64,000 bases of DNA from the NCBI RefSeq assembly GCF_006334915.2, contig NZ_VDMA02000006.1, positions 248,001 to 312,000 of the forward strand, in the 5' to 3' direction. The notes under the pieces are model-generated. The model did not search any database and was not told the origin of the DNA. It saw only the letters and a program-made list of their open reading frames with translations. A program made the translations under genes and the position numbers. Each line of letters starts with the position of its first letter. The first letter of the stretch is position 1. The stretch is from Microbispora catharanthi. Lineage in GTDB: Bacteria > Actinomycetota > Actinomycetes > Streptosporangiales > Streptosporangiaceae. This document shows, piece by piece, positions 4,075-30,849 of this stretch.

Positions 4075-5460
4075 TCACGCCTCGCCCAGCGCGTCGAGGG
4101 CGGCGGTGAAGGCCTCGGCCGGCGGGCTGACCAGACCCGCTCCCACCTGCCCGGTTCCGGCGATCCTGCCCGCGATGCCGGTGTTCACGACGGGCAGCAG
4201 ACCGGTCCTGGCCACGAGCGCGACGTCGATGCCGGCCGGCGTCCCGCGGAAGCCCAGCCCCGGGATCTGGTACGCCGGGTGCTCGGCCATGGTGATCTCG
4301 TACATCGAGGTCGTGGCCGCCACGGCGTCGGACACCTCGCCGCCGACGAACCGGACGATCGCGGGGGCCGCCGCCATGGCGAAGCCGCCCAGGCCCGCCG
4401 TCTCGGTGATGGTGGAGTCGCCGATGTCGGGGTTGGCGTCGTCCGGGCCGTATCCGCCGAGGTACAGGCCGTCGGGCACGCCGGCGGGGCCGGTGAACCA
4501 CCGGTCGCCGAGGCCCGACACCTGTATTCCGAAATCGGTTCCATTGCGCGCCATCGCCACGACCAGGCTCGACCCGGGCACGCCGCGCGCCGCGTCGGCG
4601 CTCACTTTCGCCGCCGCCATTCCCGCGTTCAGGAAGAAATGATCATTTCCATTGATGAATCGCAGCACCTCGGCCGCGTGCTGCGGGGCCGCCTCCACGA
4701 CCGCGGGCGCGATCTCGCGCACCAGCAGGGACGTCGCGGCGCGGTTACGGTTGTGCAGCTCGTCGCCCATCTGCAGCGCCTGCGCGATGAGCGTGCGCAG
4801 GTCGAGAGGGCCGCACCGCGCCAGCGCCGCCGCGAGCACCGGCCCGAGCACCTCGCCCATCCAGCGCAGCCGCTCGATCACCTCGGGCCCGTACGCGCCG
4901 TAGCGCAGGACCTTGCCCAGCCCCTCGTTCAGGGAGCAGTAGGCCGTGCCGCCGTGCTCGGCGTCGGCGACCTCCAGCATCCACATGGACGGGCTGACCA
5001 CCCCCGCCATCGGACCGACCGTGCGGTGGTGGTGGCAGGAGTCGAGGGTGATCCCCGCGCCGGAGGCCAGGCGGTCCTCCGCCTCCTCCGGGGTGGCCGC
5101 CAGGCCCTCGAACAGCATCGCCCCGGCGAGCGCCCCCCGCATCGGGCCGGAGGCCCGTTCCCAGGTGATCGGCGGACCGGCGTGGAAGAACTCCCCGGCC
5201 CCCAGGCCGAGAACCTCACGCGCCGGGCGTACGCCGGTCAGCATGGGGCGCGCCGACAGCATCCGCCCGACGGCGGTGGCGTTGGCGCTCTCGCGCCGGG
5301 GGTCGGCCAGCACCCGCGCGAGGGCCGCGGAGGCACCCCGCAGCGGCGGCCGCCAGTCGACCTCCCGCCGCGGCACGGCCTGCCGGTCCAGCGCCTCGCC
5401 CAGCACCTGCGCGCCCACCGTGATGACGCGCGGCTCGCCGTACAGCATGGAGAGGGTCAT
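4075..5460 (-). CDS. DUF1116 protein, AllG (YlbE)-like subunit of a putative carbamoyltransferase
   Basis: 461 residues from ATG at 5460, with GGAG 5 nt before it (a TTG at 5463 is the alternative). The sequence matches the DUF1116 family along its length: SHHHRTVGPM-type segment (CHHHRTVGP), NDHFFLNAGMA, VAMARNGTDFGI, a GGYGPDDANPDIGDS loop, and TETAGLGGFAMAA. In E. coli the homologue AllG works with FdrA (AllF) and AllH (DUF2877) as oxamate carbamoyltransferase (oxalurate + Pi to oxamate + carbamoyl phosphate). All three homologues are here in one minus-strand operon, this one last, 31 nt after the fdrA-like stop. No ureidoglycolate or allantoin genes are present, so the substrate need not be oxalurate. 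Family assignment is firm; substrate is open. Confidence 0.88.
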   Translation of the reverse strand: MTLSMLYGEPRVITVGAQVLGEALDRQAVPRREVDWRPPLRGASAALARVLADPRRESANATAVGRMLSARPMLTGVRPAREVLGLGAGEFFHAGPPITWERASGPMRGALAGAMLFEGLAATPEEAEDRLASGAGITLDSCHHHRTVGPMAGVVSPSMWMLEVADAEHGGTAYCSLNEGLGKVLRYGAYGPEVIERLRWMGEVLGPVLAAALARCGPLDLRTLIAQALQMGDELHNRNRAATSLLVREIAPAVVEAAPQHAAEVLRFINGNDHFFLNAGMAAAKVSADAARGVPGSSLVVAMARNGTDFGIQVSGLGDRWFTGPAGVPDGLYLGGYGPDDANPDIGDSTITETAGLGGFAMAAAPAIVRFVGGEVSDAVAATTSMYEITMAEHPAYQIPGLGFRGTPAGIDVALVARTGLLPVVNTGIAGRIAGTGQVGAGLVSPPAEAFTAALDALGEA

Positions 5461-5494
5461 CAAGCTCCGATCGGGGTCGGCGCGGCCACGCCCG

Positions 5495-6862
5495 TCACCC
5501 GCCCGCGAGGAGGCGGGCGTGCCGGGCGGCCGCGGCGTTGGAGGTGAAGACCGCCGCCCCGGCCTCGTTCAGCCGGGCGGCCTGGGCACGCAGCCCCTGA
5601 GGGTCGCCGTCGGTGCCGACGACGGCCACGACCACGTCCACGCCCCCGGCCACCGCGTCGCGGATCGCGGGCGCGAGCCAGGAGGACGGGTCGGGGTCGG
5701 CGCCGTGCCCGAGCACGACGTCCATCAGCACGACGCCGGAGGCGACGCCGCGCAGCGCCTCCAGGCGCAGCGCCGGGTCGATCATGGGATGGGCCCGGCC
5801 CCGCGTGTAGGCGTCGTCGCCGAAGTCGGTGAACTCGCCTGTGCCCGCGACGAGCGCCGCCTCCGCGCACAGCGTGCCGCCGGCGTAGAGCCCCCGCAGG
5901 ACCGCCGCGTCCCGGCGCCCGGCCGAGGCCGGCGGCGCGGGCCAGGAGGGCCACTCGGGGACGTCGCGGCCGAGGGCTCGCAGCACCTTCTCCGCGGCGG
6001 TGGTCAGGTCGTCCTGCCCCGGCCCGAGGAGCGCGGCGACGACCGGCGTCGCCAGGTCGAGGTCCCGTACGGCACGGGCCACCTCGGGGGCGGGGGGTTT
6101 GGAGACCAGCACGATCAGCTCGGTCGCCGGGTCCTCGTCGAGCGCGCGCAGCGCCTGCACGGCCGAGCGCCCGCCCACCTCGGCGGACAGGTCCCTGCCG
6201 CCCACGCCGAGCACGTGGGACACGCCGACGCCGGCGAGGTCGAGCAGGCTCGTCACCTGCTGGGCGCCGGTCCCCGAGGCGGCCACGACGCCGACGGGCC
6301 CGGGGCGCAGGACGTTGGCGAAGCCCAGGCCGGCCCCGCCCACGACCGCGGTGCCGCAGTCGGGCCCCATCACGAGCACGCCCCTGGCCCGTGCCCGGTC
6401 CTTGAGCAGGATCTCCTGCTCCACGGGCATGTTGTCACTGAAGATCATTACCGAGAGCCCGGCCTCCACGGCGTCGAGCGCCTCGGCGAAGGCGTGCTCG
6501 CCCGGCACGCTCACCAGCGCCAGGCTCGCCTCGAAGGCCCGCGCCGCCGACCGGGTCGTACGCGGCGGCGCGTCGCCCCGCGTCCCGCTCGCCGGCGCCC
6601 GTGCGGCGAGCTGTCGCTCCAGTTCGGCGGCGGCGTCCTCCAGTTCCGCAGGAGAGTCCGCCCGGACCGCCACCAGCAGGTCGCCGGGCGTCGCGGGCGG
6701 CACCGCGAAGCCGAGATCGCGGGCGAGGCCCAGGTTGAGCTCGGTCGCCATCGCGACGACGGCGACGGCCACTCCGGGCATTGCGGTGAGCGCCCGGCTC
6801 ACCCGCATCAGCGTCACGGAGTCGCGGTAGACCCCGGGGCGCACCTCGACCAGGTCGTTCAC
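5495..6862 (-). CDS. fdrA: FdrA (AllF)-like acyl-CoA synthetase-fold subunit of a putative carbamoyltransferase
   Basis: 455 residues from GTG at 6862 (RBS GGGAGG), overlapping the upstream DUF2877 stop by 4 nt (GTGA), which implies translational coupling. FdrA hallmarks: N-terminal RPGVYRDSVTLMRVS, then DNMPVEQE, MGPDCGTA, the Rossmann segment VVAASGTGAQQVT, and GVGGRDLS, followed by a C-terminal half with GLYAGGTLCAEA. The fold is that of succinyl-CoA synthetase alpha/beta; in the E. coli homologue it forms the core of oxamate carbamoyltransferase. It is shorter than the roughly 550-residue E. coli FdrA, mainly at the C-terminus. It probably releases carbamoyl phosphate from an N-carbamoyl amide by phosphorolysis. 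The carbamate kinase needed to collect the ATP is not adjacent but lies at 39219-40154. Confidence 0.9.
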   Translation of the reverse strand: MNDLVEVRPGVYRDSVTLMRVSRALTAMPGVAVAVVAMATELNLGLARDLGFAVPPATPGDLLVAVRADSPAELEDAAAELERQLAARAPASGTRGDAPPRTTRSAARAFEASLALVSVPGEHAFAEALDAVEAGLSVMIFSDNMPVEQEILLKDRARARGVLVMGPDCGTAVVGGAGLGFANVLRPGPVGVVAASGTGAQQVTSLLDLAGVGVSHVLGVGGRDLSAEVGGRSAVQALRALDEDPATELIVLVSKPPAPEVARAVRDLDLATPVVAALLGPGQDDLTTAAEKVLRALGRDVPEWPSWPAPPASAGRRDAAVLRGLYAGGTLCAEAALVAGTGEFTDFGDDAYTRGRAHPMIDPALRLEALRGVASGVVLMDVVLGHGADPDPSSWLAPAIRDAVAGGVDVVVAVVGTDGDPQGLRAQAARLNEAGAAVFTSNAAAARHARLLAGG

Positions 6863-7764
6863 TGGCCCTCCCGATGGGCGAGGACGGCGGACAGGCCGAT
6901 CTGCACGCCCCACGCCAGGTCGGCGCCCGAGGTGTGGCCGAGGCGGAGCAGGCGGTGCACGGCCGGCTCCAGCGGCTGGTGCCCGGCCACGCCGCGCAGC
7001 ACGCCGGTGACCTCCGGGCTCGCCTCGCCTCTGGCGGCGCAGTGCAACAGGGTGGCAGAGATGGGTGTGGTCCGGGTGCGGGCGTCGTAGGTGACCGCCG
7101 CGGCGAGCCAGTCGGCCAGCCAGACGGCGCGCGGCACTCCCGCCGCCGCGCCGAGGTGCCGCAGCGCGACCAGCAGGCCGGCGAGCATGTCGTCGCCGCT
7201 CGGCGTCAGCCCCGGGCCGAGGCCGATCAGCCGCTCGGCCGCGGTGATGCTCTCCACCAGAGAACCGGCCCGGCAGCCGCGCTCGAGCAGCGCCGGGGCG
7301 CCGTCCGGGTCCAGCCCCGGCCGCCGGGGCGAGGCCGCGCGGGCACGGCGGAGCAGGCCGAGGGCGGGTGCGAGCCGTGTGGGGTCGGCGGGGCCGAGCG
7401 GGGGAGCGGGGTCCCACCAGCGGCGCACGCAGATCGACACGCCGCCGACCTCGACGGAGCCCTCGCCGACCCAGGCGTCGTCGCCCGCCGACACCCCGTC
7501 GAGGCGCTCCGCGAGCACCACCGCGTTGGGCAGGCGGACGGCCTCGCCCGTCACCACGGCGACGACGTGCGGCTCGGCCTCGCTCCTGATCTCCAGGTAG
7601 AGCGCGAGGGGAAAGGCCGCGAGCACCCTGGCCGGGCGGCGGGGCGCCTCGATCGCGGGCCGTACGGCCACGCTCGCGGCGCCGCTCACGTAGGCGGAGG
7701 CCGCCGGGGGGCGGGACGCGGGCGTCGTCGCCCGCCGCCCTTTCGGGCGCGTGCCAACACTCAC
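6859..7764 (-). CDS. DUF2877 protein, AllH (YlbF)-like subunit of a putative carbamoyltransferase
   Basis: 301 residues, GTG start at 7764 with GGGAGG four to five bases upstream. The diagnostic DUF2877 motif GLGPGLTPSGDDML is present around residues 185-198, followed by TRTTPISATLL and a C-terminal HTSGADLAWG segment. In E. coli the AllH homologue is the third subunit of oxamate carbamoyltransferase. Here it is the first gene of a minus-strand operon with fdrA-like (4-nt overlap) and DUF1116 genes. The first ~40 residues (basic, then Ala/Pro-rich) are poorly conserved in style, so a later start is possible. The operon is divergent from a PucR-family activator across 7765-8010, a usual arrangement for a regulator and its target. 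Confidence 0.87.
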   Translation of the reverse strand: MSVGTRPKGRRATTPASRPPAASAYVSGAASVAVRPAIEAPRRPARVLAAFPLALYLEIRSEAEPHVVAVVTGEAVRLPNAVVLAERLDGVSAGDDAWVGEGSVEVGGVSICVRRWWDPAPPLGPADPTRLAPALGLLRRARAASPRRPGLDPDGAPALLERGCRAGSLVESITAAERLIGLGPGLTPSGDDMLAGLLVALRHLGAAAGVPRAVWLADWLAAAVTYDARTRTTPISATLLHCAARGEASPEVTGVLRGVAGHQPLEPAVHRLLRLGHTSGADLAWGVQIGLSAVLAHREGQ

Positions 7765-7813: not shown

Positions 7814-7825
7814 CTCCGTACGGAG
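7814..7825. promoter_or_regulatory. 12-bp perfect palindrome in divergent allH-like/pucR intergenic region
   Basis: CTCCGTACGGAG is a perfect inverted repeat in the 246-nt space between the carbamoyltransferase operon (minus) and the pucR-like gene (plus). It lies about 50 nt upstream of the operon's first codon, a plausible operator position. CGTACG cores are common in high-GC actinomycetes, so this may be chance. The rest of 7765-8010 has no clear gene. Confidence 0.35.
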
Positions 7826-8010
7826 AAAGATGCCAACAGTCGGCCGAATGCTTGGCTCTTCCTGACAGGACCGTGGTCGGGCACAATCGGCCTGAGACGT
7901 CCCCGGAGCGAGCCCGACGCGGTGAGCGGAGTGGTCCGCGAGGTACGAGCGGCCCGCGTAGCGAACGAGGAGGGTGAGCGACCGATGACCCGAGGACGTC
8001 GCGACCCCCG

Positions 8011-9639
8011 GTGACGGCATTCTCGGAGACGGCATTGCAGAACGACCCGGCCCCGCCCGCCATGCGCCTGGCGAGCACTGGAACGATCCTGCACGGCGTG
8101 TCGGTGGGCGAGGTGCTCGGGGTCTCGACGCTGGCGGACGCCCGCCTGATCGCCGGGCGGGCCGGCCTCGACCGCATCGTGCAGCGCCTCAACGTGATGG
8201 AGGTGCCCGACATCCTCGCCTGGGTGAAGCCGCACGAGCTGCTGCTCACCACGGGCTACCCGCTGCGCAACACGCCGCAGTCGCTCGACCGGCTCGTGGC
8301 CGACCTGGACGAGCGCGGCCTCGCCGCCCTGGCGATCAAGCTCGGCCGCTACCTGGACGAGCTCCCCGGGGAGATGGTCGAGCAGGCCGACCGGCTGGGC
8401 TTCCCGCTGATCCTGCTGCCCAACGACGTGGGCTTCGACGACATCCTCAACCAGGTGCTCACCGACATACTCAACCGCCAGGCGGCGATCCTCGCCCGTA
8501 CGGAGGAGGCGCACCGGGCGCTCGTGCAGATCGTGCTGGCCGGGGGCGGGATGCGGGAGGTGACGGCGGAGGTGGCCGGGCTGCTGCAGGTGGCCGTGGG
8601 GGCGACCGACGCCGCCGGTCATCTCCTCGCGGCCGCCGGGGAGTCCGCGCAGGTGGCGCGGCTGCGGGAGATCAACGCGGCTCTCGCGCGGACGCCGGCG
8701 GCCCCGCCCGCGGGTGGCGACGGGCACTACGCGGCGGTGCCCGTCGTCGCGGGCGGGCACCACCACGGGAGGATCGCGGCCTACAGCGCCCACGGCACGC
8801 TGACCCCCAGCGACATCGGCATCCTGGAGCGCGCCGCGACCGTCGCGGCGCTGGTGATCACGAAGCAGGAGGCGGTCACCGCCGTCGAGAGCAAGTACCG
8901 CGCCGACTTCCTGCGCGACGTGCTCACCGGCAGGGGCGGGCTGCGGGTGGCCGAGCGCGCCCAGGCGTTCGGCTGGGACCTGGAGCGCCCGGTGAGCGTG
9001 CTGGTCGCCGAGATCGACCCGGACGCCGAGGAACGGCCGGTCCAGGACCGCATGCTGGCGGCGTGGCAGGCGTCGGTGCGCAAGCACGACCCGCGCGGCG
9101 CGGTCGCCGGCTTCTCCCACGAGGTCGTGGCGATCGTCGGGGCGGCGGCCGATCCGGCGAAGGTGGCCAGGGACGCGCTCGCCGCCGTCTCCGACGGCAC
9201 GTTCTCCACCGGCCTCAGCCGGGTCGCCTCCGGCGCGGACGCCCTGCCCGGCGCGTACGGCCAGGCGCTGAAGGCCGCCAGGGTGGGCCGCCAGCTCCAC
9301 GGGGCCGGCGCGGTCGCCCACTTCGACGAGCTGGGCGTCTACCGGCTGCTGTCGCTGGTGAACGACACCGACGAGCTGCACGCCTTCGTCCGCGAGACCC
9401 TGGGCCCGCTCGCGGGGGACGACGACGCGGAGAACGCCGACCTGCGCCGCACCCTGCAGGCGCTGCTGGAGACCAACCTCAACGTCGCCGAGACCGCGCG
9501 CCGCCTGCACTTCCACTACAACACCCTGCGCTACCGGATCGGCAAGCTGGAGCGCATGCTGGGCAACTTCACCGAGGACGCGCACCTGCGGCTCAACCTC
9601 ACCCTCGCCCTCCACGTCCTGCGCATGAGGGGCATCTAG
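8011..9639 (+). CDS. PucR-family transcriptional regulator (purine/pyrimidine catabolism type)
   Basis: Up to 542 residues. N-terminal PucR domain (about 30-150) with VSVGEVLG, VMEVPDI and ELLLTTGYPL; central GAF/GGDEF-like region; C-terminal PucR-type helix-turn-helix with LLETNLNVAETARRL and HYNTLRYRIGKLERM. This is the usual architecture of activators of purine, allantoin and related nitrogen catabolism. The GTG at 8011 has no strong ribosome site; ATG at 8062 or GTG at 8098 would still keep the whole first domain. It is divergent from the FdrA/AllG/AllH-like operon and upstream of the NCS2 permease and molybdenum hydroxylase on its own strand, so it likely controls one or both. Effector unknown. 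Confidence 0.9.
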   Translation: MTAFSETALQNDPAPPAMRLASTGTILHGVSVGEVLGVSTLADARLIAGRAGLDRIVQRLNVMEVPDILAWVKPHELLLTTGYPLRNTPQSLDRLVADLDERGLAALAIKLGRYLDELPGEMVEQADRLGFPLILLPNDVGFDDILNQVLTDILNRQAAILARTEEAHRALVQIVLAGGGMREVTAEVAGLLQVAVGATDAAGHLLAAAGESAQVARLREINAALARTPAAPPAGGDGHYAAVPVVAGGHHHGRIAAYSAHGTLTPSDIGILERAATVAALVITKQEAVTAVESKYRADFLRDVLTGRGGLRVAERAQAFGWDLERPVSVLVAEIDPDAEERPVQDRMLAAWQASVRKHDPRGAVAGFSHEVVAIVGAAADPAKVARDALAAVSDGTFSTGLSRVASGADALPGAYGQALKAARVGRQLHGAGAVAHFDELGVYRLLSLVNDTDELHAFVRETLGPLAGDDDAENADLRRTLQALLETNLNVAETARRLHFHYNTLRYRIGKLERMLGNFTEDAHLRLNLTLALHVLRMRGI

Positions 9640-10240: not shown

Positions 10241-11623
10241 ATGGCTTTCAGATGGACAGTGCACGGCGACGGGAGAGGGCTGGCCCCCGGGGAGGTCGTC
10301 AAACCGGACGAGAGGCTGAGCTGGCCGCGCATGGTCGGCATCGGCGCCCAGCACGTGATCGCCATGTTCGGCGCGACCTTCGTGTTCCCCCTCGTCATGG
10401 GGCTGGACCCGAACACGGCCGTGATGATGTCGGGCGTCGCGACGATCCTGTTCCTGCTCTTCACCCAGGGGCGTATCCCCAGCTACCTGGGCACGTCGGC
10501 GTCGTTCGTCGGCGGCGTCGTGGCGGTGCGTGCGGCGTTCGGCGGCGACACCCCGGCGGCCGACCAGGTCGTGACCGGCGCGATCCTCGTCGCCGGCCTG
10601 GTGCTCGCCCTGTGCGGCGTGGCGATCCACGTGCTCGGCGTGCAGATCATCCACCGCGTCTTCCCCCCGGTCGTGACCGGCGCGGTGGTCCTGCTGATCG
10701 GCTTCGGCCTGGCGTACGTCGTGGCCGACGTGTACTGGCCGCAGGACCCGTGGATCGCGCTCATCACGATGGTCGCGACGTTCGTGTTCATCGTGCTCTT
10801 CCGCGGCTTCCTCGGCCGGATCGGCGTGCTACTCGGGCTGGTCTTCGGGTTCGTCCTGTCCTGGCTCGCCGACAAGGTCTTCGGGAACATCACCGCCTAC
10901 AACGCGGGCACCGGGAAGATCGACACCCACCCCCGGGTGAGCTTCCAGGCCGTCGCCGACGCCGACTGGATCGGGCTGCCGCACTTCCACGCCCCGTCGT
11001 TCCAGGCGTCGGCCGTGCTGGTCGTGCTGCCCGCGGTGATCGCCCTGATCGCGGAGAACGTCGGCCACGTCAAGGCCGTGGGCCAGATGACCGGCGCCGA
11101 CGTCGACCCCCAGATGGGCAGGGCGGTCATCGCCGACGGCGTCGGCACCGTGGTCGCCACCGCCGTCGGCGGCTCGCCCACCACGACGTACGCCGAGAAC
11201 ATCGGCGTCATGGCGGCCACGCGGGTCTACTCGACGGCCGCCTACTACATCGCCGCGGTCATCGCGATCCTGTTCGGCCTGTGCCCCAAGTTCGGCGCGC
11301 TGGTCGCCGCCACGCCCGGCGGCGTGCTCGGCGGCGTCACGGTCATCCTGTACGGCATGATCGGGTTGCTCGGCGCCAAGATCTGGGTGGAGAACCGGGT
11401 GGACTTCGCCGACCCGGTCAACATGGTGCCGATCGGCGCGGGGATCATCCTCGCGATCGGGCCGGTCACCCACCAGATCACCGGCGACTTCTCGCTCGCC
11501 GGGATCGCGCTCGGCACGATCGTGGTGCTCGCCGGCTATCACCTGCTCCGCGCCATCGCGGGCAGACGAGCGAAGGAGGTCACGGGTGGGGAGATCGGGC
11601 TCGAACGCGACCCGGCCGTCTGA
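10241..11623 (+). CDS. NCS2-family uracil permease (UraA/RutG-like)
   Basis: 460 residues, ATG with GAGGGG RBS. About 14 hydrophobic segments. The NCS2 signature regions are clear: IGAQHVIAMFGATFVFP at the N-terminus, ALIAENVGHVKAVG with the substrate-binding Glu, and GGSPTTTYAENIGVMAATRVYS with the second Glu. The SPTTTYAENIG form is that of the uracil branch (UraA, PyrP, RutG) rather than the xanthine/urate branch. It is expected to import uracil or a close analogue such as thymine or barbiturate by proton symport. It is followed after 27 nt by the molybdenum hydroxylase genes, suggesting one transcription unit for uptake and oxidation of the same compound. Confidence 0.92.
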   Translation: MAFRWTVHGDGRGLAPGEVVKPDERLSWPRMVGIGAQHVIAMFGATFVFPLVMGLDPNTAVMMSGVATILFLLFTQGRIPSYLGTSASFVGGVVAVRAAFGGDTPAADQVVTGAILVAGLVLALCGVAIHVLGVQIIHRVFPPVVTGAVVLLIGFGLAYVVADVYWPQDPWIALITMVATFVFIVLFRGFLGRIGVLLGLVFGFVLSWLADKVFGNITAYNAGTGKIDTHPRVSFQAVADADWIGLPHFHAPSFQASAVLVVLPAVIALIAENVGHVKAVGQMTGADVDPQMGRAVIADGVGTVVATAVGGSPTTTYAENIGVMAATRVYSTAAYYIAAVIAILFGLCPKFGALVAATPGGVLGGVTVILYGMIGLLGAKIWVENRVDFADPVNMVPIGAGIILAIGPVTHQITGDFSLAGIALGTIVVLAGYHLLRAIAGRRAKEVTGGEIGLERDPAV

Positions 11624-11650: not shown

Positions 11651-12526
11651 GTGAAGCCGCCTCCGTTCGGCTACCACGGCCCGGCCACCCTCGGCGAGGC
11701 GCTCGACGTCCTCGCCGAGGCCGGGCCCGACGGGAAGGTGCTGGCGGGCGGCCAGAGCCTGATCCCGCTGCTCAACATGCGGCTGGCCGCGCCCGCCCAC
11801 ATCGTCGACGTGAACCGCGTGCCCGGCCTGGACGGGATCGAGGCCGGGCCGTCCGGCGTACGCGTCGGGGCCCTGGCCCGCCACGCCGCCGTGGAGCGCT
11901 CGCCGGAGGCCGCCGCCGCGCAGCCGTTGCTGCGGCAGGCGCTGCGGCTGGTCGCCCACCCCGTGATCCGCAACCGCGGCACTGTGGTGGGCAGCCTCGT
12001 GCACGCCGACCCCGCCGCCGAGATGCCCGCCGTGCTCGCCCTGCTCGGCGGGTCCGTACGGCTGGCGAGCCGGGGCGGGGAGCGGGAGGTGCCGGCCTCG
12101 GAGTTCTTCACCGGCCCGATGGAGTCGGCGCTGCGGCCCGGTGAACTGGCCGTGTCGGCGTTCTTCCCCGCGCTGCCCCGGCGGTCGGGCACGGCCTTCC
12201 ACGAGGTGGCCCGGCGGCACGGCGACTACGCGGTGGCCGGGGTGGCCGCCGCCGTCACGCTGGACGAGGACCTCCGGATCGCCGCCGCCCGCGTCGCCTG
12301 TGTGAGCGTGGGACCGGTCCCGGTGGTGGTGGACGTGACCGCCGCCTGCGGCCCGCGCCCGGCCGCCTCGGCCGGCTGGGAGGCCGCGGCGGAAGCCGTA
12401 CGGGACCGGATCGATCCGGAGGGCGACATCCACGCGACGGCGGACTACCGGCGGCACCTCACCGGGGTGCTCGCCGCACGGGCGCTGCGGGACGCCGCCT
12501 CCGCGGCCCGCGGGGAGGAATCGTGA
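11651..12526 (+). CDS. Molybdenum hydroxylase medium subunit (FAD-binding, XdhB/CoxM-like)
   Basis: 291 residues. FAD-binding signatures AGGQSLIPLLNMR (about 32-44) and HPVIRNRGTVVGSL (about 103-116) followed by HADPAAEMP are those of the xanthine dehydrogenase/CO dehydrogenase flavin subunit, and length fits (usually 280-300). It carries electrons from the 2Fe-2S subunit to FAD and on to an acceptor. The stop overlaps the next start (GTGA) and gene order M-S-L is the common one. Substrate is set by the large subunit and cannot be read here. Confidence 0.9.
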   Translation: MKPPPFGYHGPATLGEALDVLAEAGPDGKVLAGGQSLIPLLNMRLAAPAHIVDVNRVPGLDGIEAGPSGVRVGALARHAAVERSPEAAAAQPLLRQALRLVAHPVIRNRGTVVGSLVHADPAAEMPAVLALLGGSVRLASRGGEREVPASEFFTGPMESALRPGELAVSAFFPALPRRSGTAFHEVARRHGDYAVAGVAAAVTLDEDLRIAAARVACVSVGPVPVVVDVTAACGPRPAASAGWEAAAEAVRDRIDPEGDIHATADYRRHLTGVLAARALRDAASAARGEES

Positions 12527-13011
12527 ACGAGACAGGCCATCACGTGAGGCTGACGGTCAACGGGGTCGTGCGGGAGGCGACGGTGCCCGGGCGGCGGCTG
12601 CTGTCGGACTGCCTGCGCCACGACCTCGGCCTCACCGGCACCCACGTGGGCTGTGAGCACGGCGTCTGCGGCGCCTGCACGGTGCTGCTGGACGGCGAGC
12701 CGGTGCGGTCGTGCCTGACGTTCGCCGTCACGGTGGACGGCCACGAGATCACGACGGTGGAGGGGCTGGCGCGCGACGGCGAGCTGTCGCCGGTCCAGCG
12801 GGCCTTCACCGAGTGCCACGCCCTGCAGTGCGGGTTCTGCACGCCGGGGTTCCTGTGCACGGTCACCGCGTTCCTGCGGGACAACCCCGCACCGACCGAG
12901 GAGGAGGCGCTGAAGGCCGTGGCGGGCAACCTGTGCCGGTGCACCGGCTACCAGAACATCCTCAAGGCGGTCCACCGGGCAGCGGAGATCCAGGCGGAGG
13001 AGGACCGGTGA
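12523..13011 (+). CDS. Molybdenum hydroxylase small subunit ([2Fe-2S], XdhC/CoxS-like)
   Basis: 162 residues, the family norm. Two iron-sulfur clusters are visible: the plant-ferredoxin-type GCEHGVCGACTVLLDG plus a later Cys in VRSC, and the alpha-helical type QCGFCTPG with NLCRCTGY. It relays electrons between the molybdenum site and FAD. GTG start overlaps the upstream stop, and its own stop overlaps the next GTG, so M, S and L are translationally coupled. Confidence 0.94.
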   Translation: MNETGHHVRLTVNGVVREATVPGRRLLSDCLRHDLGLTGTHVGCEHGVCGACTVLLDGEPVRSCLTFAVTVDGHEITTVEGLARDGELSPVQRAFTECHALQCGFCTPGFLCTVTAFLRDNPAPTEEEALKAVAGNLCRCTGYQNILKAVHRAAEIQAEEDR

Positions 13012-15392
13012 CGACCAGGTTGTTCGGCGAGCCGGTCCGGCGGCGCGAGGACGCCCGGCTGATCACCGGTCAGGGGCGCTACCTCGACGACCTGGGCGGA
13101 GGCGCGCTGGCCGCCGCCTTCGTCAGGTCGCCGCACGCCCACGCGCGGATCCTCGACATCGACGTGTCGGCCGCCCTCGACGTCGAGGGCCTCGTCGCGA
13201 TCTACACGTGGGAGGACCTGCCGGGCGCGCTGGCCGAGCCGCTGCCGCTGCTGATCCCGCACCCCGCGCTCACCCACGGCCGCACGGCGTACCCGCTGGC
13301 CCGGGAGATCGTCCGGCACGTCGGCGAGCCGGTCGTGATGGTCGTGGCCCGCGACCGCTACCTCGCCGAGGACGCCTGCGCCCTGATCCGGGTCGACTAC
13401 GAGATCCTCAAGCCCGTCGTGGGCATCGAGGAGGCCGTGCGCGGCGTTCATCTCGTGCACGAGGACGTGCCGGGCAACATCGGCGCGCACCTCGTCCAGG
13501 AGGTGCCGGGACCGGGCGGCCTGACCGCGCGGGAGGCGATCGACGCCGCCCCGCACACGCTGGAGTTCCGCCTCGACGTCGAGCGCAGCGCGTGCACGCC
13601 CCTGGAGGGGAAGGGCGTGTACGCCCGCTGGGACGCCGACGACGGGTCGCTGCGCGTCTACTCCTCCACGCAGACGTCCACGAGCGTGCGGATGGCGATC
13701 GCGGCCAAGCTCGGGCTGCCGCTGCCCAAGGTGGAGGTCATCGCGCCCGACGTCGGCGGCGGGTTCGGCGTCAAGATCGTGCATCCGTGGCCCGAGGAGG
13801 TCCTCGTCCCATGGGCGGCCCGGCTGCTGAACCGCGAGGTGAAGTGGACCGAGGACCGGCGCGAGCACTTCGTCTCGTCGTCACACGAGCGCGGCCAGGT
13901 CCAGCACGTGCGGGCCGGGTTCGACGACGAGGGGCGCGTGCTCGGCCTCGAGGTCGAGATCCTGCACGACCACGGCGCCTACACGCCGTACGGGATCATC
14001 GTGCCGATCATCACCTCGACGCAGCTGCTCGGGCCGTACAAGGTGGGGGCCTACCGGGTCGAGTTCTCCTCGATCTACACCAACACGGTGCAGGTCACGC
14101 CCTACCGGGGCGCGGGCCGCCCGCAGGGCGTGTTCTGCATGGAGCGGACGATGGACCGCATCGCCGCCCACCTCGGCAGGGACCGCACCGCGGTCCGCGC
14201 GGCCAACTTCATCCAGCCGCACGAGTTCCCCTACGACCAGGGCATGACGTTCCAGGACGGGCGCCCGCTGATCTACGACAGCGGCGACTACCCCGAGGCG
14301 CTGCGCATGCTCAAGGAGCTGATCGGCTGGGACTCCTTCCCGGAGACGAAGGCCCGCGCGGCGGCCGAGGGACGCAGGATCGGCATCGGCGTCGGCTGCT
14401 ACGTCGAGGGCACCGGCGTCGGCCCCTACGAGGGCGGGCACGTGCAGGTGACCTCCGACGGCCGGGTGCACGTCTCGACCGGCCTGACCTCCCAGGGACA
14501 GGGGCACGAGACCGTGTTCGCCCAGATCGCGGCCACCGAGCTCGGCGTGCCGATCGAGAAGGTGTCGGTCGTCACCGGCGACACCCGGCGCTTCGGGTAC
14601 GCCGTGGGCACCTTCGCCTCACGGGCGGCCGTGATGAGCGGCAACGCGATCGCGCTCGCCTGCCGGAAGGTCAGGGAGAAGGCGCTGCGGATCGCGGCGG
14701 AGGCGCTGGAGGCCGACCCGCGCGACCTGGAGATCACCGACGGGATGGTCCACGTCGCCGGCGTGCCGTCGGCGTCGATCCCGCTGGCGACCGTCGCCGT
14801 GCTGTCCAACCCGCTGCGATACGCCTTCGACGAGGAGGCCAAACGGGCCACCCAGTTCGCAGGCCCCGCCTCAGACGACCGGCCGCCGGTGGCGGAGGGG
14901 GAGGAGCCGGGTCTGGAGGGCCGTGACTACTACTCGCCGGTCAGGTCCACCTTCGCCGCCGGCATGCACGCGGCGATCGTGGAGACCGACCTCGACACCG
15001 CGGAGATCAGGATCCTGCGTTACGCCGTCGTCCACGACTGCGGCAAGCTGATCAATCCGATGATCGTCGAGGGGCAGATCCACGGCGGGGTCGCCCAGGG
15101 CGTCGGCGGGGCGCTGTACGAGAAGATGGTCTACGACGAGCACGGCCAGTTGCTGAACGCCTCGTTCATGGACTTCCTGATGCCGTACGCCACGGAGGTG
15201 CCGCGCATCGAGACGGCCCACCTGGAGACGCCCTCACCGCTGAACCCGCTGGGGATCAAGGGCGCGGGGGAGGCCGGGGTCATCCCCGTCTCGGCCGTCA
15301 TCGCCTCCGCGGTCGAGGACGCCGAGGGCATCACGATCGCCCGGATGCCCGTCTCCCCCTCCGACCTCCACCACCTGCGCCTGGAACGGTGA
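13008..15392 (+). CDS. Molybdenum hydroxylase large subunit (xanthine dehydrogenase family)
   Basis: 794 residues from GTG at 13008. N-terminal GEPVRRREDARLITGQGRY, molybdopterin-binding segments DVGGGFGVK, YRGAGRPQG and GQGHETV, and the catalytic Glu in GIKGAGEAG near the C-terminus. The position where CO dehydrogenases carry their Cys-containing active-site loop reads PYRGAGRP, so this is not a CO dehydrogenase. Members hydroxylate N-heterocycles or aldehydes with water-derived oxygen. Next to a uracil-type permease, a uracil/thymine or related N-heterocycle dehydrogenase is plausible (uracil to barbiturate), but xanthine, hypoxanthine, nicotinate-like or aldehyde substrates remain possible. 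No XdhC-type maturation factor is seen nearby. Confidence 0.92.
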   Translation: MTTRLFGEPVRRREDARLITGQGRYLDDLGGGALAAAFVRSPHAHARILDIDVSAALDVEGLVAIYTWEDLPGALAEPLPLLIPHPALTHGRTAYPLAREIVRHVGEPVVMVVARDRYLAEDACALIRVDYEILKPVVGIEEAVRGVHLVHEDVPGNIGAHLVQEVPGPGGLTAREAIDAAPHTLEFRLDVERSACTPLEGKGVYARWDADDGSLRVYSSTQTSTSVRMAIAAKLGLPLPKVEVIAPDVGGGFGVKIVHPWPEEVLVPWAARLLNREVKWTEDRREHFVSSSHERGQVQHVRAGFDDEGRVLGLEVEILHDHGAYTPYGIIVPIITSTQLLGPYKVGAYRVEFSSIYTNTVQVTPYRGAGRPQGVFCMERTMDRIAAHLGRDRTAVRAANFIQPHEFPYDQGMTFQDGRPLIYDSGDYPEALRMLKELIGWDSFPETKARAAAEGRRIGIGVGCYVEGTGVGPYEGGHVQVTSDGRVHVSTGLTSQGQGHETVFAQIAATELGVPIEKVSVVTGDTRRFGYAVGTFASRAAVMSGNAIALACRKVREKALRIAAEALEADPRDLEITDGMVHVAGVPSASIPLATVAVLSNPLRYAFDEEAKRATQFAGPASDDRPPVAEGEEPGLEGRDYYSPVRSTFAAGMHAAIVETDLDTAEIRILRYAVVHDCGKLINPMIVEGQIHGGVAQGVGGALYEKMVYDEHGQLLNASFMDFLMPYATEVPRIETAHLETPSPLNPLGIKGAGEAGVIPVSAVIASAVEDAEGITIARMPVSPSDLHHLRLER

Positions 15393-18583: not shown

Positions 18584-19273
18584 ATGAAGGTCTCAGGCAG
18601 CGCGCTGGTCGCGGCGGAGCGCAAGCGGGTCTGGGACGCCCTCCAGGACCCCGGCGTCCTGGTTCGGACGATCCCCGGCTGCGAGCGCCTGGAGACGATC
18701 GGCGAGCACGTGTACGCGATGACGGTGACCGCGGGGGTCGCCTCGATCAAGGGCGTCTACCAGGGCGAGGTGGCGCTGCGCGACCAGGAGGAGCCGGACC
18801 GGTTCACGCTCGGCGCACGCGGCCAGGGCGCCCCCGGCACGGTCGAGGCGACCGTGGCCGTACGGCTCAGCGACGCCGGAGGCGGCACCCGGATCGACTA
18901 CGACGCCGAGGCCGTCGTCGGCGGCATGATCGGCGGCGTGGGGCAGCGGATGCTCGCCTCGGTCGCCAAGAAGACCGCGGGGGAGTTCTTCTCCGCCGTC
19001 GAGCGGCACCTGCTGTCCGTCCCCGCCGGATCCGTGGAAACCGTCGTCGCCGAGGTCGCGCCGGTGGCGGCGGCCGGCGACGAGCGTGCGGCGGTGGCGG
19101 CGGCCGTGACCGGGGAGGCCGCGCCGCGGGTGTTCACGCGAGAGGTCCCGGCCGCGCCCCGCCAGGGTGTGCCGGCCTGGACGATGCTCGCGGCGTTCGG
19201 CACCGGCGCCGGGGTGGCGCTCGGCAGCGCCGTCATCGGCTGGCTCCTCGGCCGCCAAAGCCGCCGCAGGTAG
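18584..19273 (+). CDS. CoxG-like SRPBCC protein with C-terminal membrane anchor
   Basis: 229 residues, ATG with GGAGGTGG. Residues 1-145 are a CoxG-type START/SRPBCC domain: VSGSALVAAERKRVWDAL, DPGVLVRTIPGCERLE, VASIKGVYQGEV, DAEAVVGGMIGGVGQRML. A low-complexity Ala/Val-rich linker follows, and a final hydrophobic segment VPAWTMLAAFGTGAGVALG with a basic tail anchors it to the membrane. CoxG proteins accompany molybdenum hydroxylases; in mycobacteria CoxG is reported to hand menaquinone to CO dehydrogenase. Here it lies close to, but is separated by cydAB from, the molybdenum hydroxylase genes. A role in passing electrons from that enzyme to the quinone pool is a reasonable inference. Confidence 0.85.
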   Translation: MKVSGSALVAAERKRVWDALQDPGVLVRTIPGCERLETIGEHVYAMTVTAGVASIKGVYQGEVALRDQEEPDRFTLGARGQGAPGTVEATVAVRLSDAGGGTRIDYDAEAVVGGMIGGVGQRMLASVAKKTAGEFFSAVERHLLSVPAGSVETVVAEVAPVAAAGDERAAVAAAVTGEAAPRVFTREVPAAPRQGVPAWTMLAAFGTGAGVALGSAVIGWLLGRQSRRR

Positions 19274-19415: not shown

Positions 19416-20594
19416 CTAGGAGAGGGCGCCGACGGGCGCGTCCCAGTCGATGCGGTAGCGCTGTTCCGGGCCCACGGTCTTGTCCGGATTCAGGAACGTC
19501 TTCACCATCAGCGGCATGAGAAGCGGCACCAGCTTCTGCATGACCGGACCCGGCGTCTTGGCGCTGATGATCTTGGAGGTGCGTGCCGCGACCTTCTCCA
19601 CCCGGGTGCGGCGGAGCCGCTCGTACGTGGCGAACGCCCGTGGTACGTCCTCGATGTCCCGCAGGCAGCGGGCGAGCTCGACGGCGCTCTCGATGGAGAG
19701 CGACGCGCCCTGCCCCGAGCTGTTCGACGGCGCGTGGACGGCGTCGCCGACCAGGACCATCCGATCCCGATACCAGTGCGGGACGCTGGGCATGATGTAG
19801 AGGGCCCCCGTCACCTGCATCGATGTCACCGGGGTGTGACGGAGCAGATCCCCGCCGGGCACGTCCTCGCCGTACTTCTCACACAGGATGCGCATCCACT
19901 CCTCGCGCGGCACCTCGCGGGCCTGGGTGAGGGACAGGGGGCGGTGGTAGGGCAGGTTGACGCCCCAGGTGGTGCCGCCCGCGGCGTTCAGCCAGTAGAG
20001 GTAGTAGCCGCGCCTGCCGAAGGCGAAGACCGTCGTCTCCGGGTCTTCGGGCACCTCGTGCGAGGACACGCCTTCCAGGCCGAGCATCCCGGTCCACTTC
20101 GGGCCGGGCGCGTCCGGGTCGATGAGCCGGCGAACGGTGGAGTGGACGCCGTCGGCGCCGACCAGGACGTCGAACCGGGCCCGGCTGCCGTCCTCGAAGA
20201 CCGCTGTGGTGCCCTCGACCCCGGTGAGCCGTCTGCCGTACTCGATGTTGACGCCCTGCTTCACGGCCTCGTCGTGCAGCGCCCGGTAGAGGTCGGCGCG
20301 CCGGACCGCGTGCAGCGGTCCGACCTGGGACAGGCTGGGCAGCTCCAGGCGCGTGCGACTGCCGAGCGTCATCACCGAGCGTGTGCTGGGCTGCGCGGCC
20401 GCCCGCACCGCGTCGGCCGCACCGACGATCTCCAGTGCCGCCATGCCGTTGGGGGCGAGGACGAGCGATCCGCCGACGCCGTCGGCGCTGGTGGGGTACG
20501 CCTCGTAGACGGTGGCGTCGATGCCCGCCTTACGCAGCGCCAGCGCGGTGACCGGGCCGGCGATGCCGCCGCCGATGATCGCGACGTTCTTCAT
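19416..20594 (-). CDS. FAD-dependent monooxygenase (aromatic hydroxylase family)
   Basis: 392 residues from ATG at 20594, which has a strong GGAGGAG site; an upstream in-frame start at 20666 lacks one. Dinucleotide motif VAIIGGGIAGPVTALAL at the N-terminus, DG motif LVGADGVHSTVRRL (~160), and the second FAD motif VLVGDAVHAPSNSSGQGAS (~290). This is the PHBH/UbiH-like class that hydroxylates aromatic or related substrates using NAD(P)H and O2. Its substrate is unknown. A PadR regulator is encoded just downstream on the same strand beyond a hairpin, and is the likely controller (PadR proteins often regulate phenolic or drug detoxification). Confidence 0.9.
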   Translation of the reverse strand: MKNVAIIGGGIAGPVTALALRKAGIDATVYEAYPTSADGVGGSLVLAPNGMAALEIVGAADAVRAAAQPSTRSVMTLGSRTRLELPSLSQVGPLHAVRRADLYRALHDEAVKQGVNIEYGRRLTGVEGTTAVFEDGSRARFDVLVGADGVHSTVRRLIDPDAPGPKWTGMLGLEGVSSHEVPEDPETTVFAFGRRGYYLYWLNAAGGTTWGVNLPYHRPLSLTQAREVPREEWMRILCEKYGEDVPGGDLLRHTPVTSMQVTGALYIMPSVPHWYRDRMVLVGDAVHAPSNSSGQGASLSIESAVELARCLRDIEDVPRAFATYERLRRTRVEKVAARTSKIISAKTPGPVMQKLVPLLMPLMVKTFLNPDKTVGPEQRYRIDWDAPVGALS

Positions 20595-20700
20595 TTCTCC
20601 TCCTGTCGATTGACGTGCTCGCCGAACCGTCATGGGAGGAGACCCGTTATTCTCGATTCGTTGCATCTTCGGGCCACCGCATGCCGGTTCGAAGGTTCTC

Positions 20701-20730
20701 CTGGTGGCGGTGTTGCAGCACCGCCACCAG
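20701..20730. terminator. Strong 12-bp hairpin after the padR-like gene
   Basis: CTGGTGGCGGTG (20701-20712) and CACCGCCACCAG (20719-20730) form a perfect 12-bp stem with a 6-nt loop, starting 2 nt beyond the padR-like stop codon on the minus strand. It separates padR from the monooxygenase gene that follows in the same direction, implying separate transcripts. Confidence 0.8.
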
Positions 20731-20732
20731 GG

Positions 20733-21380
20733 CTAAATGTCGGTGATGTTCTTTTCCGCGAGTTCCTTCATCTCGGCCGGCAGTCCGCCGGCCTCGTGGA
20801 AGGCCCGCCACTCCGGCAGGCCGGGGAAGGTGCCCGCGGTCAGCTCGTCGAGCAGGGCGCCGATCCAGCCCTCTTCCGCCTTGAGTATCGCCAGGTCGTA
20901 CTCCGTCTCGATGAGGAAAAGACGCGGCACCTGCGCGCTGTCACGTTCGTAGAGCTCCTCCAGCCCGGCGATCCCCTTCCTGATCGCCGCGAGCCGGTCG
21001 GTGAGCAGCCCGGCCACGTCGTCCGGGGGGAGCACCGCCATGACCGACAGGCCGGCGCGAAACCACGGGAACTCCGTGTGGGGGACGCGGAGCAGCTCCC
21101 GGGTCCAGTCGACCAGCTCCTCCCGGCCCGCCTCGGTGATCCGGTAGACGGTCCGCTCGGGGCGGCGCCCCTGGCGACCGCTCTCCAGTTCCTGGATCAG
21201 CCCATGCTTGGCCAGGTTGCCGACGACCGTGTAGAGAGACCCCCACTTGATCCCCATGTCGTGCTCTTTGTTCCAGCCGCGCAGGGCCGCCGCCATCTCG
21301 TAGGGATGCATCGGCCGATGCGCGAGCGCGGAGAGCACCGCCAACGCCAGCAGGTTCGCCACCTTGCGCCGCTTCGCCAT
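20733..21380 (-). CDS. PadR-family transcriptional regulator
   Basis: 215 residues. N-terminal winged helix: LLALAVLSALAHRPMHPYEM, GSLYTVVGNLAKHGLI, and wing segment RPERTVYRITEAGREEL (residues 10-90); C-terminal Vir-type helical domain with LEELYERD and a long dimerisation region. It is a dimeric repressor, likely of the neighbouring FAD monooxygenase and of itself. A 26-nt inverted repeat sits just upstream of its start (21406-21431). Confidence 0.9.
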   Translation of the reverse strand: MAKRRKVANLLALAVLSALAHRPMHPYEMAAALRGWNKEHDMGIKWGSLYTVVGNLAKHGLIQELESGRQGRRPERTVYRITEAGREELVDWTRELLRVPHTEFPWFRAGLSVMAVLPPDDVAGLLTDRLAAIRKGIAGLEELYERDSAQVPRLFLIETEYDLAILKAEEGWIGALLDELTAGTFPGLPEWRAFHEAGGLPAEMKELAEKNITDI

Positions 21381-25702: not shown

Positions 25703-27539
25703 GAACGTCGACCCCGTGCTCGTGGAGATCGTGGAGGGCACGCTCGCCTCCGTGGAGATGGAGGTGGAGACCGCGATCGCCCGCACCGCCCGCTCGCCGA
25801 TGATCCGCGACGCCCACGACTTCCGCGCGGGCATCCACGACGCGCGGCTGCGCAAGCTGACCGGGCGCTCCTATTCGGCGCTGGTGCAGCCGATCGTCCG
25901 CGACTTCCCGATCGGCACCATGCGGCCCGGCGACGTCTTCTTCCACAACGACGTCTACCTCTCGGAGGGCGGCATCGGCCACCTGCCCGACCTGTGCGTG
26001 ACGGTGCCGGTCTTCCACGGGGGCGACGTCGTCGCGTTCGTCCAGGCGTTCGGCCACCACGACGACATCGGCGGCGCGGTGCCGGGATCGATGCCGTCGC
26101 ACGCGCGCAGCGCGTTCGAGGAGGGCCTGATGGTCCCGCCCATCAAGCTCTGGGACCAGGGCGTGCCCAACCGCGCCGCGCTCACCATCATGACGCGCAA
26201 CTCCCGGATGCCCGATTCGCTGGCGGGGGACCTCGACGCGGAGTGCTCGGCCTGCCTCATGGGCGCCCGGCGGCTCGGCGAGCTGTTCGACCGGTACGGC
26301 CGGGAGGCGGTCGAGGCGTGCTTCGACGCGATCATCGACAAGACGACCGAGACGTTCCGCCGCGAACTGCTCGCGAAGATCCCTGAAGGTGTGCACATCT
26401 GGGAGGACTACGCCGAGCACGACGGCGTGGACGAGCCGCGCCTGCACACCCAGCGGATCACTCTCACCGTCGACCACGCGGCGGACACCCCGCTGACCAT
26501 CGACTTCACCGGCACCTCGCCTCAGGCCAAGGGACCGATCAACCACGCCGGCGACTACGCCGACGGCGTCTTCCTGAAGAAGTGGCTGGCGCCGATCCTG
26601 CGCAACCTCGCCGACACGCCCGAGCGGATGGCCGAGCTCGACGTCAACGAGGGCGTCGTGCCGCTGATCAGGATGGTCTTCCCGGAGAAGGGCACCCTGC
26701 TGACGCCGATCTTCCCCGCGCCCACCAACGCCCGTACGTTCGTGATCCTGCGCCTGCTCGGCGTGCTGGCGGGCGTGCTCGCCAAGGCGACCGGCGGCCG
26801 CATGCCCGCCGACCAGGAGACCATCCGCTACACCGGCGTGTACGGCGAGTCGGACGACGGGCCCTACCTCATGCGCGAGGTGCTCGGCGGCGGCTCGGGC
26901 GGGCGCTGGTACGCCGACGGGGAGGACACCATCCACGTGGTGCCCGACAGCCGCAACATCCCGGTGGAGTTCGCCGAGGCACGCTGGCCGTTCCGGGTCG
27001 AGCGGCTGGGCCTGGCCGTGGACAGCGGCGGGCCGGGGGAGTTCCGCGGCGGCCTCGGCTACGACAAGCACATCCGCATGCTGCGGGACGCCTCCTTCAT
27101 GTCGATCGCCGACCGCTCGATCCTGTCGTGCTGGGGCGTCAACGGCGGCCGGGCGGGCCGTCCCTTCCAGGTCACGGTGGACGGCGTGGAGATGGAGGGC
27201 CTGGTCGACGACTTCCCCGTACGCGCCGGGCAGGTCATCCGCATCCGCACGACCGGCGGAGGCGGCTGGGGCTCGCCCTACGACCGGCCGGCGGAGAGGG
27301 TGGCCGCCGACGTCCGCGACGGGAAGGTGTCGCCCGAGGGCGCGCGCGAGGACTACGGCGTCGTGCTGTCCGTCTCACACGAGGCCGGAGCCGTCGACGA
27401 GGTCGTCATGGACGTGGAGGCGACCGAGCGCCTGCGGGAGCGGCTGCGCGAGACGCGTCCCGCCGCCTTCTTCGACCGCGGCCCGGGGTACCCCAAACTC
27501 TCCGGCGGCCTCCCGCATGCGGAGGTGGACACCGTCTGA
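25692..27539 (+). CDS. hyuB: Hydantoinase/oxoprolinase subunit B (HyuB)
   Basis: 615 residues, start ATG inside the hyuA end. HyuB features: VEIVEGTLASVEMEVETAI, GDVFFHNDVYL, HLPDLCVTVPVF with FGHHDDIGG (metal-binding His/Asp), IDFTGTSPQAKGPIN, and a C-terminal GGGGWGSPYDRPAERV glycine-rich end. With HyuA it forms an ATP-dependent amidohydrolase acting on a cyclic imide or lactam. A role in opening a pyrimidine-derived or hydantoin ring would fit the nucleobase theme of the window but is not demonstrated. Confidence 0.93.
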   Translation: MTDRNVDPVLVEIVEGTLASVEMEVETAIARTARSPMIRDAHDFRAGIHDARLRKLTGRSYSALVQPIVRDFPIGTMRPGDVFFHNDVYLSEGGIGHLPDLCVTVPVFHGGDVVAFVQAFGHHDDIGGAVPGSMPSHARSAFEEGLMVPPIKLWDQGVPNRAALTIMTRNSRMPDSLAGDLDAECSACLMGARRLGELFDRYGREAVEACFDAIIDKTTETFRRELLAKIPEGVHIWEDYAEHDGVDEPRLHTQRITLTVDHAADTPLTIDFTGTSPQAKGPINHAGDYADGVFLKKWLAPILRNLADTPERMAELDVNEGVVPLIRMVFPEKGTLLTPIFPAPTNARTFVILRLLGVLAGVLAKATGGRMPADQETIRYTGVYGESDDGPYLMREVLGGGSGGRWYADGEDTIHVVPDSRNIPVEFAEARWPFRVERLGLAVDSGGPGEFRGGLGYDKHIRMLRDASFMSIADRSILSCWGVNGGRAGRPFQVTVDGVEMEGLVDDFPVRAGQVIRIRTTGGGGWGSPYDRPAERVAADVRDGKVSPEGAREDYGVVLSVSHEAGAVDEVVMDVEATERLRERLRETRPAAFFDRGPGYPKLSGGLPHAEVDTV

Positions 27540-30723: not shown

Positions 30724-30849
30724 GGCGGCCCGGGGCGCCGGGCCGTACCGGGAGTACGGACCGGGCTGTCGCGCCGGCGGGGTGACCTGGCAGGCTTTCC
30801 GGTGGAGACCGAAGGACGTTCTCCTCAGCGACCCCCGTGGAGGCTGGCC

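Follow-up and report, generated by a model that had tools for sequence, protein, structure and literature searches.

An AllFGH-type carbamoyltransferase operon associated with barbiturase in Microbispora catharanthi and other Actinomycetes: a probable role in oxidative pyrimidine breakdown

Genes resembling the three subunits of oxamic transcarbamylase, AllH, FdrA (AllF) and AllG, lie in a row in the DNA of the actinomycete Microbispora catharanthi (assembly GCF_006334915.2; genome of 9.25 Mb), within positions 248,001-312,000 of contig NZ_VDMA02000006.1. This stretch of 64,000 nucleotides (nt) is called the window, and coordinates refer to it unless otherwise indicated. The Escherichia coli enzyme, AllFGH, interconverts oxalurate plus phosphate and oxamate plus carbamoyl phosphate, a reaction shown in the reverse direction (excerpt of PMC11326118). 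Which compound is handled by the Microbispora enzyme? The genes associated with it suggest that AllH-FdrA-AllG is the carbamoyltransferase of oxidative pyrimidine breakdown, a reading given a probability of roughly three in four, with ureidomalonate as the likely substrate in a chain leading from uracil to barbiturate, to ureidomalonate, and to malonamate plus carbamoyl phosphate. Oxalurate is probably not the substrate here.

The three genes are on the reverse strand. AllH (DUF2877; 6859-7764, GTG start, 301 amino acids; PF11392, 97 bits, cut-off 25) overlaps FdrA (5495-6862, GTG start, 455 amino acids) by 4 nt, and a gap of 31 nt separates FdrA from AllG (DUF1116; 4075-5463; TTG start, or ATG three bases on). 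This geometry had been described correctly in an earlier note on the same DNA, as had the small size of FdrA, which is shorter than the 555-amino-acid E. coli protein. FdrA scores 364 bits on the FdrA model NF004760, below the cut-off of 433, 84 bits on PF00549, a Pfam model of CoA-ligase domains, and 224 bits to the structure 3DMY ('Protein fdrA'). AllG scores 332 bits on PF06545 (cut-off 27) and 379 bits to the structure 3CLQ. All three subunits of the oxamic transcarbamylase AllFGH (EC 2.1.3.5) are thus encoded together. AllH matches no solved-structure sequence at an E value of 0.001 (best 0.04); searches with its AlphaFold model (pLDDT 82, pTM 0.72) brought up nothing below an E value of 0.2 in Foldseek and nothing above a Z of 4.8 in VIA-align, and the model is uninformative on function.

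A gene pair on the forward strand of the window bears on the substrate. Carbamate kinase (39219-40154), taken as a catabolic enzyme, is accepted by the curated model NF009007 (291 bits, cut-off 266), and scores 336 bits on TIGR00746, below the cut-off of 358. It is followed by barbiturase (40154-41260; PF09663, 493 bits; EC 3.5.2.1), the GTG start of which overlaps the kinase stop by one base (TAGTG). A search of the whole genome found one gene of this ring-opening amidohydrolase family, the one in the window. Its product scores 597 bits to the structure 5HWE, named 'Barbiturase', and at most 326 bits to cyanuric acid hydrolases. From the identity and association of these genes the following route may be inferred. 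Uracil would enter through an NCS2 permease and be hydroxylated to barbiturate by a CoxMSL-type molybdenum hydroxylase, as a candidate uracil/thymine dehydrogenase (EC 1.17.99.4). Barbiturase would open the barbiturate ring to give ureidomalonate (HOOC-CH2-CO-NH-CO-NH2). Since ureidomalonate is oxalurate plus one CH2, AllFGH is proposed to split it as the E. coli enzyme does oxalurate, with inorganic phosphate giving malonamate and carbamoyl phosphate, from which carbamate kinase would form ATP, CO2 and ammonia. An amidase would then convert malonamate to malonate, which, more speculatively, would reach acetyl-CoA through a CoA-transferase and an AccDA-like decarboxylase. The product of barbiturase is given as 3-oxo-3-ureidopropionate, that is ureidomalonate, in an excerpt of PMC3758960.

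AllG, the barbiturase family, carbamate kinase, allantoinase, CoxL group 5 and HyuB were surveyed in the same 296 genomes of Actinomycetes, and found in 72, 66, 107, 125, 63 and 63 of them, respectively. The threshold was an E value of 1e-40 for carbamate kinase and the model cut-off for allantoinase. The second fragment of a split barbiturase match in G209, the allantoinase of G161 and the second CoxL copies of G051 and G183 (the last three below cut-off) were dropped before counting; the partial CoxL copy of G119, also below, was retained, and G051, the AllG of which is of a distant type (202 bits), was counted among the AllG genomes. The figures that follow are numbers of genomes having both genes, the first only, the second only and neither, and are uncorrected for phylogeny, except in the within-family view. 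AllG and barbiturase go together (60/12/6/218, phi 0.83), as do AllG and CoxL (60/12/3/221, phi 0.86), barbiturase and CoxL (61/5/2/228, phi 0.93), HyuB and barbiturase (61/2/5/228, phi 0.93) and, less tightly, AllG and carbamate kinase (67/5/40/184, phi 0.67). AllG is found in 59 of the 60 genomes having barbiturase, CoxL and HyuB, the exception, G014, being only 72% complete; the 59 genomes belong to 11 families, and include G051. Within the family of the window (28 genomes) AllG and barbiturase are distributed 13/0/1/14.

Barbiturase is missing in 12 AllG genomes. In two of these, G023 and G108 (80% complete), AllG falls inside the barbiturase-linked clade described below, in the other ten outside it. 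In five barbiturase-lacking genomes (G003, G159, G116, G167, G288) the distance between AllG and carbamate kinase is 357-375 bp; two of these, G003 and G288, also have a cysteine hydrolase resembling BiuH (275-278 bits, cut-off 370) next to the pair. Six genomes with barbiturase-family genes, G014 among them, lack AllG. In G031, G093, G100 and G122 the PF09663 proteins are distant (291-403 bits; 439 in G100), with no carbamate kinase on the contig and no AllG; the neighbours of the G093 gene resemble, by eye, urease and amidase.

Physical linkage follows the same pattern. In 54 of 67 barbiturase copies a carbamate kinase gene is found on the same strand at a distance of 28-217 bp. AllG is on the same contig as barbiturase in 37 of the 67, on the opposite strand in all 37, and 17-43 kb away in 30. 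In seven copies the distance is 89.6 kb to 1.7 Mb; both genes are retained even so, which argues for a functional tie and not just for proximity. Families other than that of the window have compact clusters, in which AllG-FdrA-AllH stands back to back with PucR-permease-CoxMSL-CoxG-(amidase)-HyuAB-(CoA-transferase, carboxyltransferase)-carbamate kinase-barbiturase, with variations; an Embleya replicon carries the same gene set with half of it inverted. In the window the cluster genes are spread over 4-41 kb.

From 446 relatives 80 loci were kept for a comparison of the surroundings of AllG, and in 69 of these the sequence upstream of AllG is 9.9 kb or longer. All 69 contain FdrA, AllH and PucR; the permease is found in 62, CoxM in 64, CoxS and CoxL in 63 each, and all seven neighbours, in unchanged order, in 61, some of those scored as missing possibly being cut off by the 10 kb flank. 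Conservation of this arrangement is far beyond chance. In the window the PucR-family regulator (8011-9639; PF07905, 125 bits; PF13556, 61 bits) is divergent from AllH, and is followed on the same forward strand by the RutG-like NCS2 nucleobase permease (10241-11623; PF00860, 252 bits), whose best NCBIfam model is TIGR03616 RutG (360 bits, below the cut-off of 759), by the FAD subunit CoxM (11651-12526; PF00941, 154 bits), the 2Fe-2S subunit CoxS (12523-13011; PF01799, 108 bits) and the molybdenum subunit CoxL (13008-15392). A CoxG-like gene (18584-19273, forward strand; PF06240, 85 bits), which comes after CoxL in other families, lies further on. Molybdenum-enzyme maturation genes of the XdhC type adjoin AllG in five clusters (G068, G090, G102, G221, G226). 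CydA/CydB-like frames, recognized by eye at 17842-15432, fit the bd oxidase mentioned in the earlier note, and frames resembling, again by eye, a FAD-dependent oxidoreductase and a PadR-type regulator are found between CoxG and HyuA, at 19416-21380.

The CoxMSL block could be taken for an aerobic CO dehydrogenase, the ureido genes around it being bystanders. CoxL scores 1522 bits (cut-off 950) on NF040766, the NCBI model 'aerobic carbon-monoxide dehydrogenase large subunit', a CoxG-like gene is present, and the coxMSL gene order seen in the window is assigned to form I enzymes in an excerpt of PMC13203968, which calls the role of form II enzymes unclear. Yet the active-site loop of CoxL reads TPYRGAGRP. 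This loop was matched 79 times, duplicates included, across the fetched loci, along with one other YRGAGR form, and AYxCSFR, the form I criterion, is not found in any of them; in an excerpt of PMC4053681, AYXCSFR denotes type I and AYRGAGR type II, and an atypical PYRGAGR is remarked on in Streptosporangium roseum and Saccharomonospora viridis. The co-occurrence of CoxL with barbiturase also speaks against a CO dehydrogenase cluster, which is hardly credible as the explanation of the locus. A uracil dehydrogenase role would account for the PYRGAGR subtype, and CoxL is a candidate for this enzyme, genomic context being what points to uracil.

Does the operon rather belong to allantoin breakdown, as in E. 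coli? The earlier note took the absence of allantoinase, allantoate amidohydrolase and ureidoglycolate dehydrogenase from the window, where indeed no allantoin gene was found, as a sign of a different ureido-acid substrate. The argument fails at the level of the genome, another contig of which carries adjoining genes for allantoinase (C55:452107-453366; 551 bits, cut-off 358) and allantoicase (C55:451118-452026). The conclusion is well supported all the same, because of the links to barbiturase, carbamate kinase, molybdenum hydroxylase and a uracil-type permease. An oxamic transcarbamylase splitting allantoin-derived oxalurate would agree with the subunits, the same three as in the E. coli enzyme, which has oxamic transcarbamylase activity (excerpt of PMC11326118), with the allantoin genes just mentioned and with the presence of allantoinase in 41 of the 72 AllG genomes. 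AllG and allantoinase are, however, nearly independent (41/31/84/140, phi 0.17), 31 AllG genomes lacking the latter and 84 allantoinase genomes the former; barbiturase and allantoinase are distributed 43/23/82/148 (phi 0.25). Allantoinase and allantoicase, located away from the operon, make up a urea-releasing route, and the genome yielded a single Ldh_2 protein, which reaches 120 bits with AllD (cut-off 496); the model that fits it best, PRK10098 malate/lactate/ureidoglycolate dehydrogenase, gives 156 bits (cut-off 336). No clear source of oxalurate was thus found in the genome. The E. coli layout, in which the operon is linked to allD, allC and allB and carbamate kinase comes directly after, is not seen in the window. 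An E. coli-type function is accordingly judged quite unlikely.

The Rut and reductive routes of uracil breakdown were looked for in the genome. The best RutA match reaches 74 bits (cut-off 498). No dihydropyrimidinase was seen, an indirect result drawn from the search of the genome with the allantoinase model, which found allantoinase, one 229-bit frame lying, by eye, among pyr genes, and nothing else above 33 bits.

Phylogeny of DUF1116 with genomic context had been suggested as a check in the earlier note. In a tree of 49 AllG rows, the 34 barbiturase-linked ones (one a duplicate) form a single clade with support 100/100, which includes AllG of the window; the E. coli chromosomal, cyanuric-acid-hydrolase-linked and cysteine-hydrolase-linked types are outside. 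The outer branching order is unsure, several outer branches, that of E. coli among them, being long. At nine positions of AllG and four of FdrA the clade has residues that are fixed to 97% or more and absent from the nine rows of other types used for comparison: residue R419 of AllG is replaced elsewhere by D, E or Q, and G432 by His in 9 of 9. Microbispora and E. coli share three homologous subunits encoded in one operon and a carbamate kinase (AllK in E. coli) in the genome, AllG being 47% and FdrA 39% identical over the aligned part. They differ in that FdrA is 100 amino acids shorter in the window, no allantoin genes adjoin, carbamate kinase goes with barbiturase, and AllG carries clade residues such as R241, T309, L335, G336, R419 and G432. 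Another type of AllG, 37-40% identical to that of the window, occurs at loci L176, L177, L178 and L181, and in three genomes (L176-L178) carbamate kinase is about 9 kb from it.

The same subunits accompany other ring- or ureido-hydrolysing enzymes outside Actinomycetes. On plasmid pSR8 of Aminobacter sp. SR38 (L197 8972-21391) fdrA, a DUF1116 gene, a ring-opening amidohydrolase and arcC are contiguous; an amidohydrolase and an ABC transporter come after carbamate kinase, and a DUF2877 gene about 6 kb on. The ring-opening enzyme, presumably TrzD, is identical over 370 amino acids to the structure 5T13, named cyanuric acid amidohydrolase. This cassette is an independent parallel in which AllFGH follows a ring-opening amidohydrolase; its substrate on pSR8, in the use of cyanuric acid, may be carboxybiuret or biuret. 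The two matches also lie close together, with 61 bp between them, on a plasmid of Klebsiella quasipneumoniae. A cysteine hydrolase stands with DUF2877-fdrA-DUF1116-arcC and permeases both on the E. coli plasmid NZ_MW800638.1 (L201 3819-11029), where it is BiuH-like (280 bits, cut-off 370), and in Peptoclostridium (L200 4202-11363), where it is annotated as 'cysteine hydrolase'. AllG matches are present in 96 Escherichia plasmid records. As in the window, the cassette stands in pSR8, the E. coli plasmid, G003, G288 and Peptoclostridium behind a ureido-compound hydrolase; the upstream enzyme of the pSR8 and BiuH-like modules differs from that of the window, and their AllG is outside the barbiturase-linked clade. 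An excerpt of PMC12625717 describes nitrifier allFGHK beside biuret hydrolase, away from known upstream purine-degradation genes as in the window, and interprets it as oxalurate degradation; the string 'barbitur' is absent from the main text of that paper. AllFGH plus carbamate kinase looks like a portable module placed behind different ureido-producing enzymes.

Several observations weigh against the assignment of AllFGH to ureidomalonate. One concerns the amidohydrolase itself, which is accepted by the NCBI cyanuric acid hydrolase model NF052395 (475 bits, cut-off 360). Were it a cyanuric acid hydrolase, AllFGH would handle carboxybiuret or biuret, as the gene order on pSR8 might suggest. 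But the scores to solved structures favour barbiturase, and NF052395 evidently takes in barbiturases too. At the place of Arg188 of cyanuric acid hydrolase (CAH), both the window protein and 5HWE have Asn, a loss of arginine expected of barbiturases. Asn is found in 42 of 42 cluster-type rows, some being one gene under two locus ids, and Arg in the Aminobacter and Citrobacter plasmid rows; Asn is not exclusive, as five distant actinomycete rows have Asn in three cases and Arg in two. The glutamine printed for the barbiturase subgroup at this place in an excerpt of PMC4051656 disagrees with the Asn seen here. The uracil-type permease and the molybdenum hydroxylase fit barbiturate, and cyanuric acid is a very unlikely starting compound.

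The other objections concern AllFGH. In the classical oxidative pathway, which shares with the window barbiturase and probably the uracil-oxidizing enzyme, ureidomalonate is hydrolysed by ureidomalonase to malonate and urea (excerpt of PMC3758960), where a phosphate-splitting, ATP-saving step is proposed for the window; the known route would make AllFGH chemically dispensable. Ureidomalonase activity might also reside in the amidase that other genomes have after CoxG. A close barbiturase, together with CoxL, is found in G197 in the absence of AllG, HyuB and an adjacent carbamate kinase, and this genome (L202, L203) may use ureidomalonase. No carbamate kinase resides on the same contig in 13 of the 67 barbiturase copies, and in the window itself AllFGH is 31 kb away from the carbamate kinase-barbiturase pair. 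A conserved stretch between PucR and AllH (7822-7863, no strand assigned) includes the inverted repeat GCCAA-N15-TTGGC, a possible operator; single 9-mers of the stretch are common to up to 44 of 72 intergenic regions. The pattern occurs twice in the window, there and at 59937; neither carbamate kinase/barbiturase nor HyuA has a copy nearby. Shared regulation through a common motif thus has no support from the sequence.

HyuAB is the main part that the scheme leaves without a step. HyuA (23657-25702; PF01968, 302 bits) and HyuB (25692-27539; PF02538, 456 bits), both on the forward strand, resemble hydantoinase/oxoprolinase subunits, their best NCBIfam models being caprolactamase subunits, below cut-off. 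HyuA is present in the compact clusters, and 61 of the 63 HyuB genomes have barbiturase, a linkage as tight as that of CoxL; though equally conserved, HyuAB has no role in the proposed scheme. In G266, CoxL and HyuB are found with neither barbiturase nor AllG: the order is XdhC-PucR-permease-CoxMSL-CoxG-HyuAB (L204 6507-20000), and no carbamate kinase, barbiturase or AllG matches were found in the genome. This cluster hints at the role of HyuAB. AllFGH might then act on a downstream or sibling compound, such as whatever HyuAB produces or the thymine-derived 5-methyl compound, rather than on ureidomalonate itself. The firm tie of HyuAB to barbiturase, with no step assigned, and the G266 cluster would agree with this; G197, with barbiturase and no HyuB, does not. 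Ureidomalonate is the simplest match to oxalurate, and pSR8 couples AllFGH directly to a ring-opening amidohydrolase. A downstream or sibling substrate is considered unlikely, and ureidomalonate is preferred.

Candidates for the malonate steps lie, on the forward strand, between HyuB and carbamate kinase. A family III CoA-transferase (30802-32016; PF02515, 405 bits), found near carbamate kinase/barbiturase in several clusters, might be a malonate CoA-transferase. An AccD-AccA-like carboxyltransferase (32013-33515; PF01039, 194 bits; TIGR00515 accD, 188 bits, below the cut-off of 317), with relatives in L156, L163, L165 and L199, might be a malonyl-CoA decarboxylase. The window yielded no convincing candidate for the malonamate amidase. 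Next to CoxG an amidase-signature or CN-hydrolase gene is found in 11 fetched clusters, the former in G045, G063, G202, G219 and G237, the latter in G158, G102, G226, G174, G014 and Embleya; neither was seen beside CoxG in the window or in the G030, G197 and G266 stretches. A nitrilase at 34473-35264, 31-33% identical to the post-CoxG CN-hydrolase of G102, G158 and G226, has deaminated-glutathione amidase as closest model, below cut-off, and was not accepted for this role. A short frame at 37983-38366, upstream of carbamate kinase, resembles by eye a Fic/Doc-family protein.

No description of a link between AllFGH and barbiturase was found in the excerpts of open-licence PubMed Central literature searched. 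On balance it seems somewhat more likely than not that an ATP-saving oxidative pyrimidine pathway exists in at least 11 of the sampled families of Actinomycetes, that the PYRGAGR 'CO dehydrogenase' is the uracil dehydrogenase still lacking a gene, that AllFGH is a ureidomalonate transcarbamylase, and that AllFGH, together with carbamate kinase, forms a portable cassette by which carbamoyl phosphate is drawn from acyl-ureas, downstream of barbiturase, cyanuric acid hydrolase, BiuH-like enzymes or the allantoin route. If so, genes would be provided for two steps lacking them in the literature searched, one being the oxidation of uracil to barbiturate and the other the further conversion of ureidomalonate, and the new AllFGH transcarbamylase class would be widened beyond oxalurate. 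The database label by which organisms with PYRGAGR-type CoxL are counted as CO oxidizers would be corrected, and in these organisms pyrimidine nitrogen would be released without urea, and with a gain of ATP.

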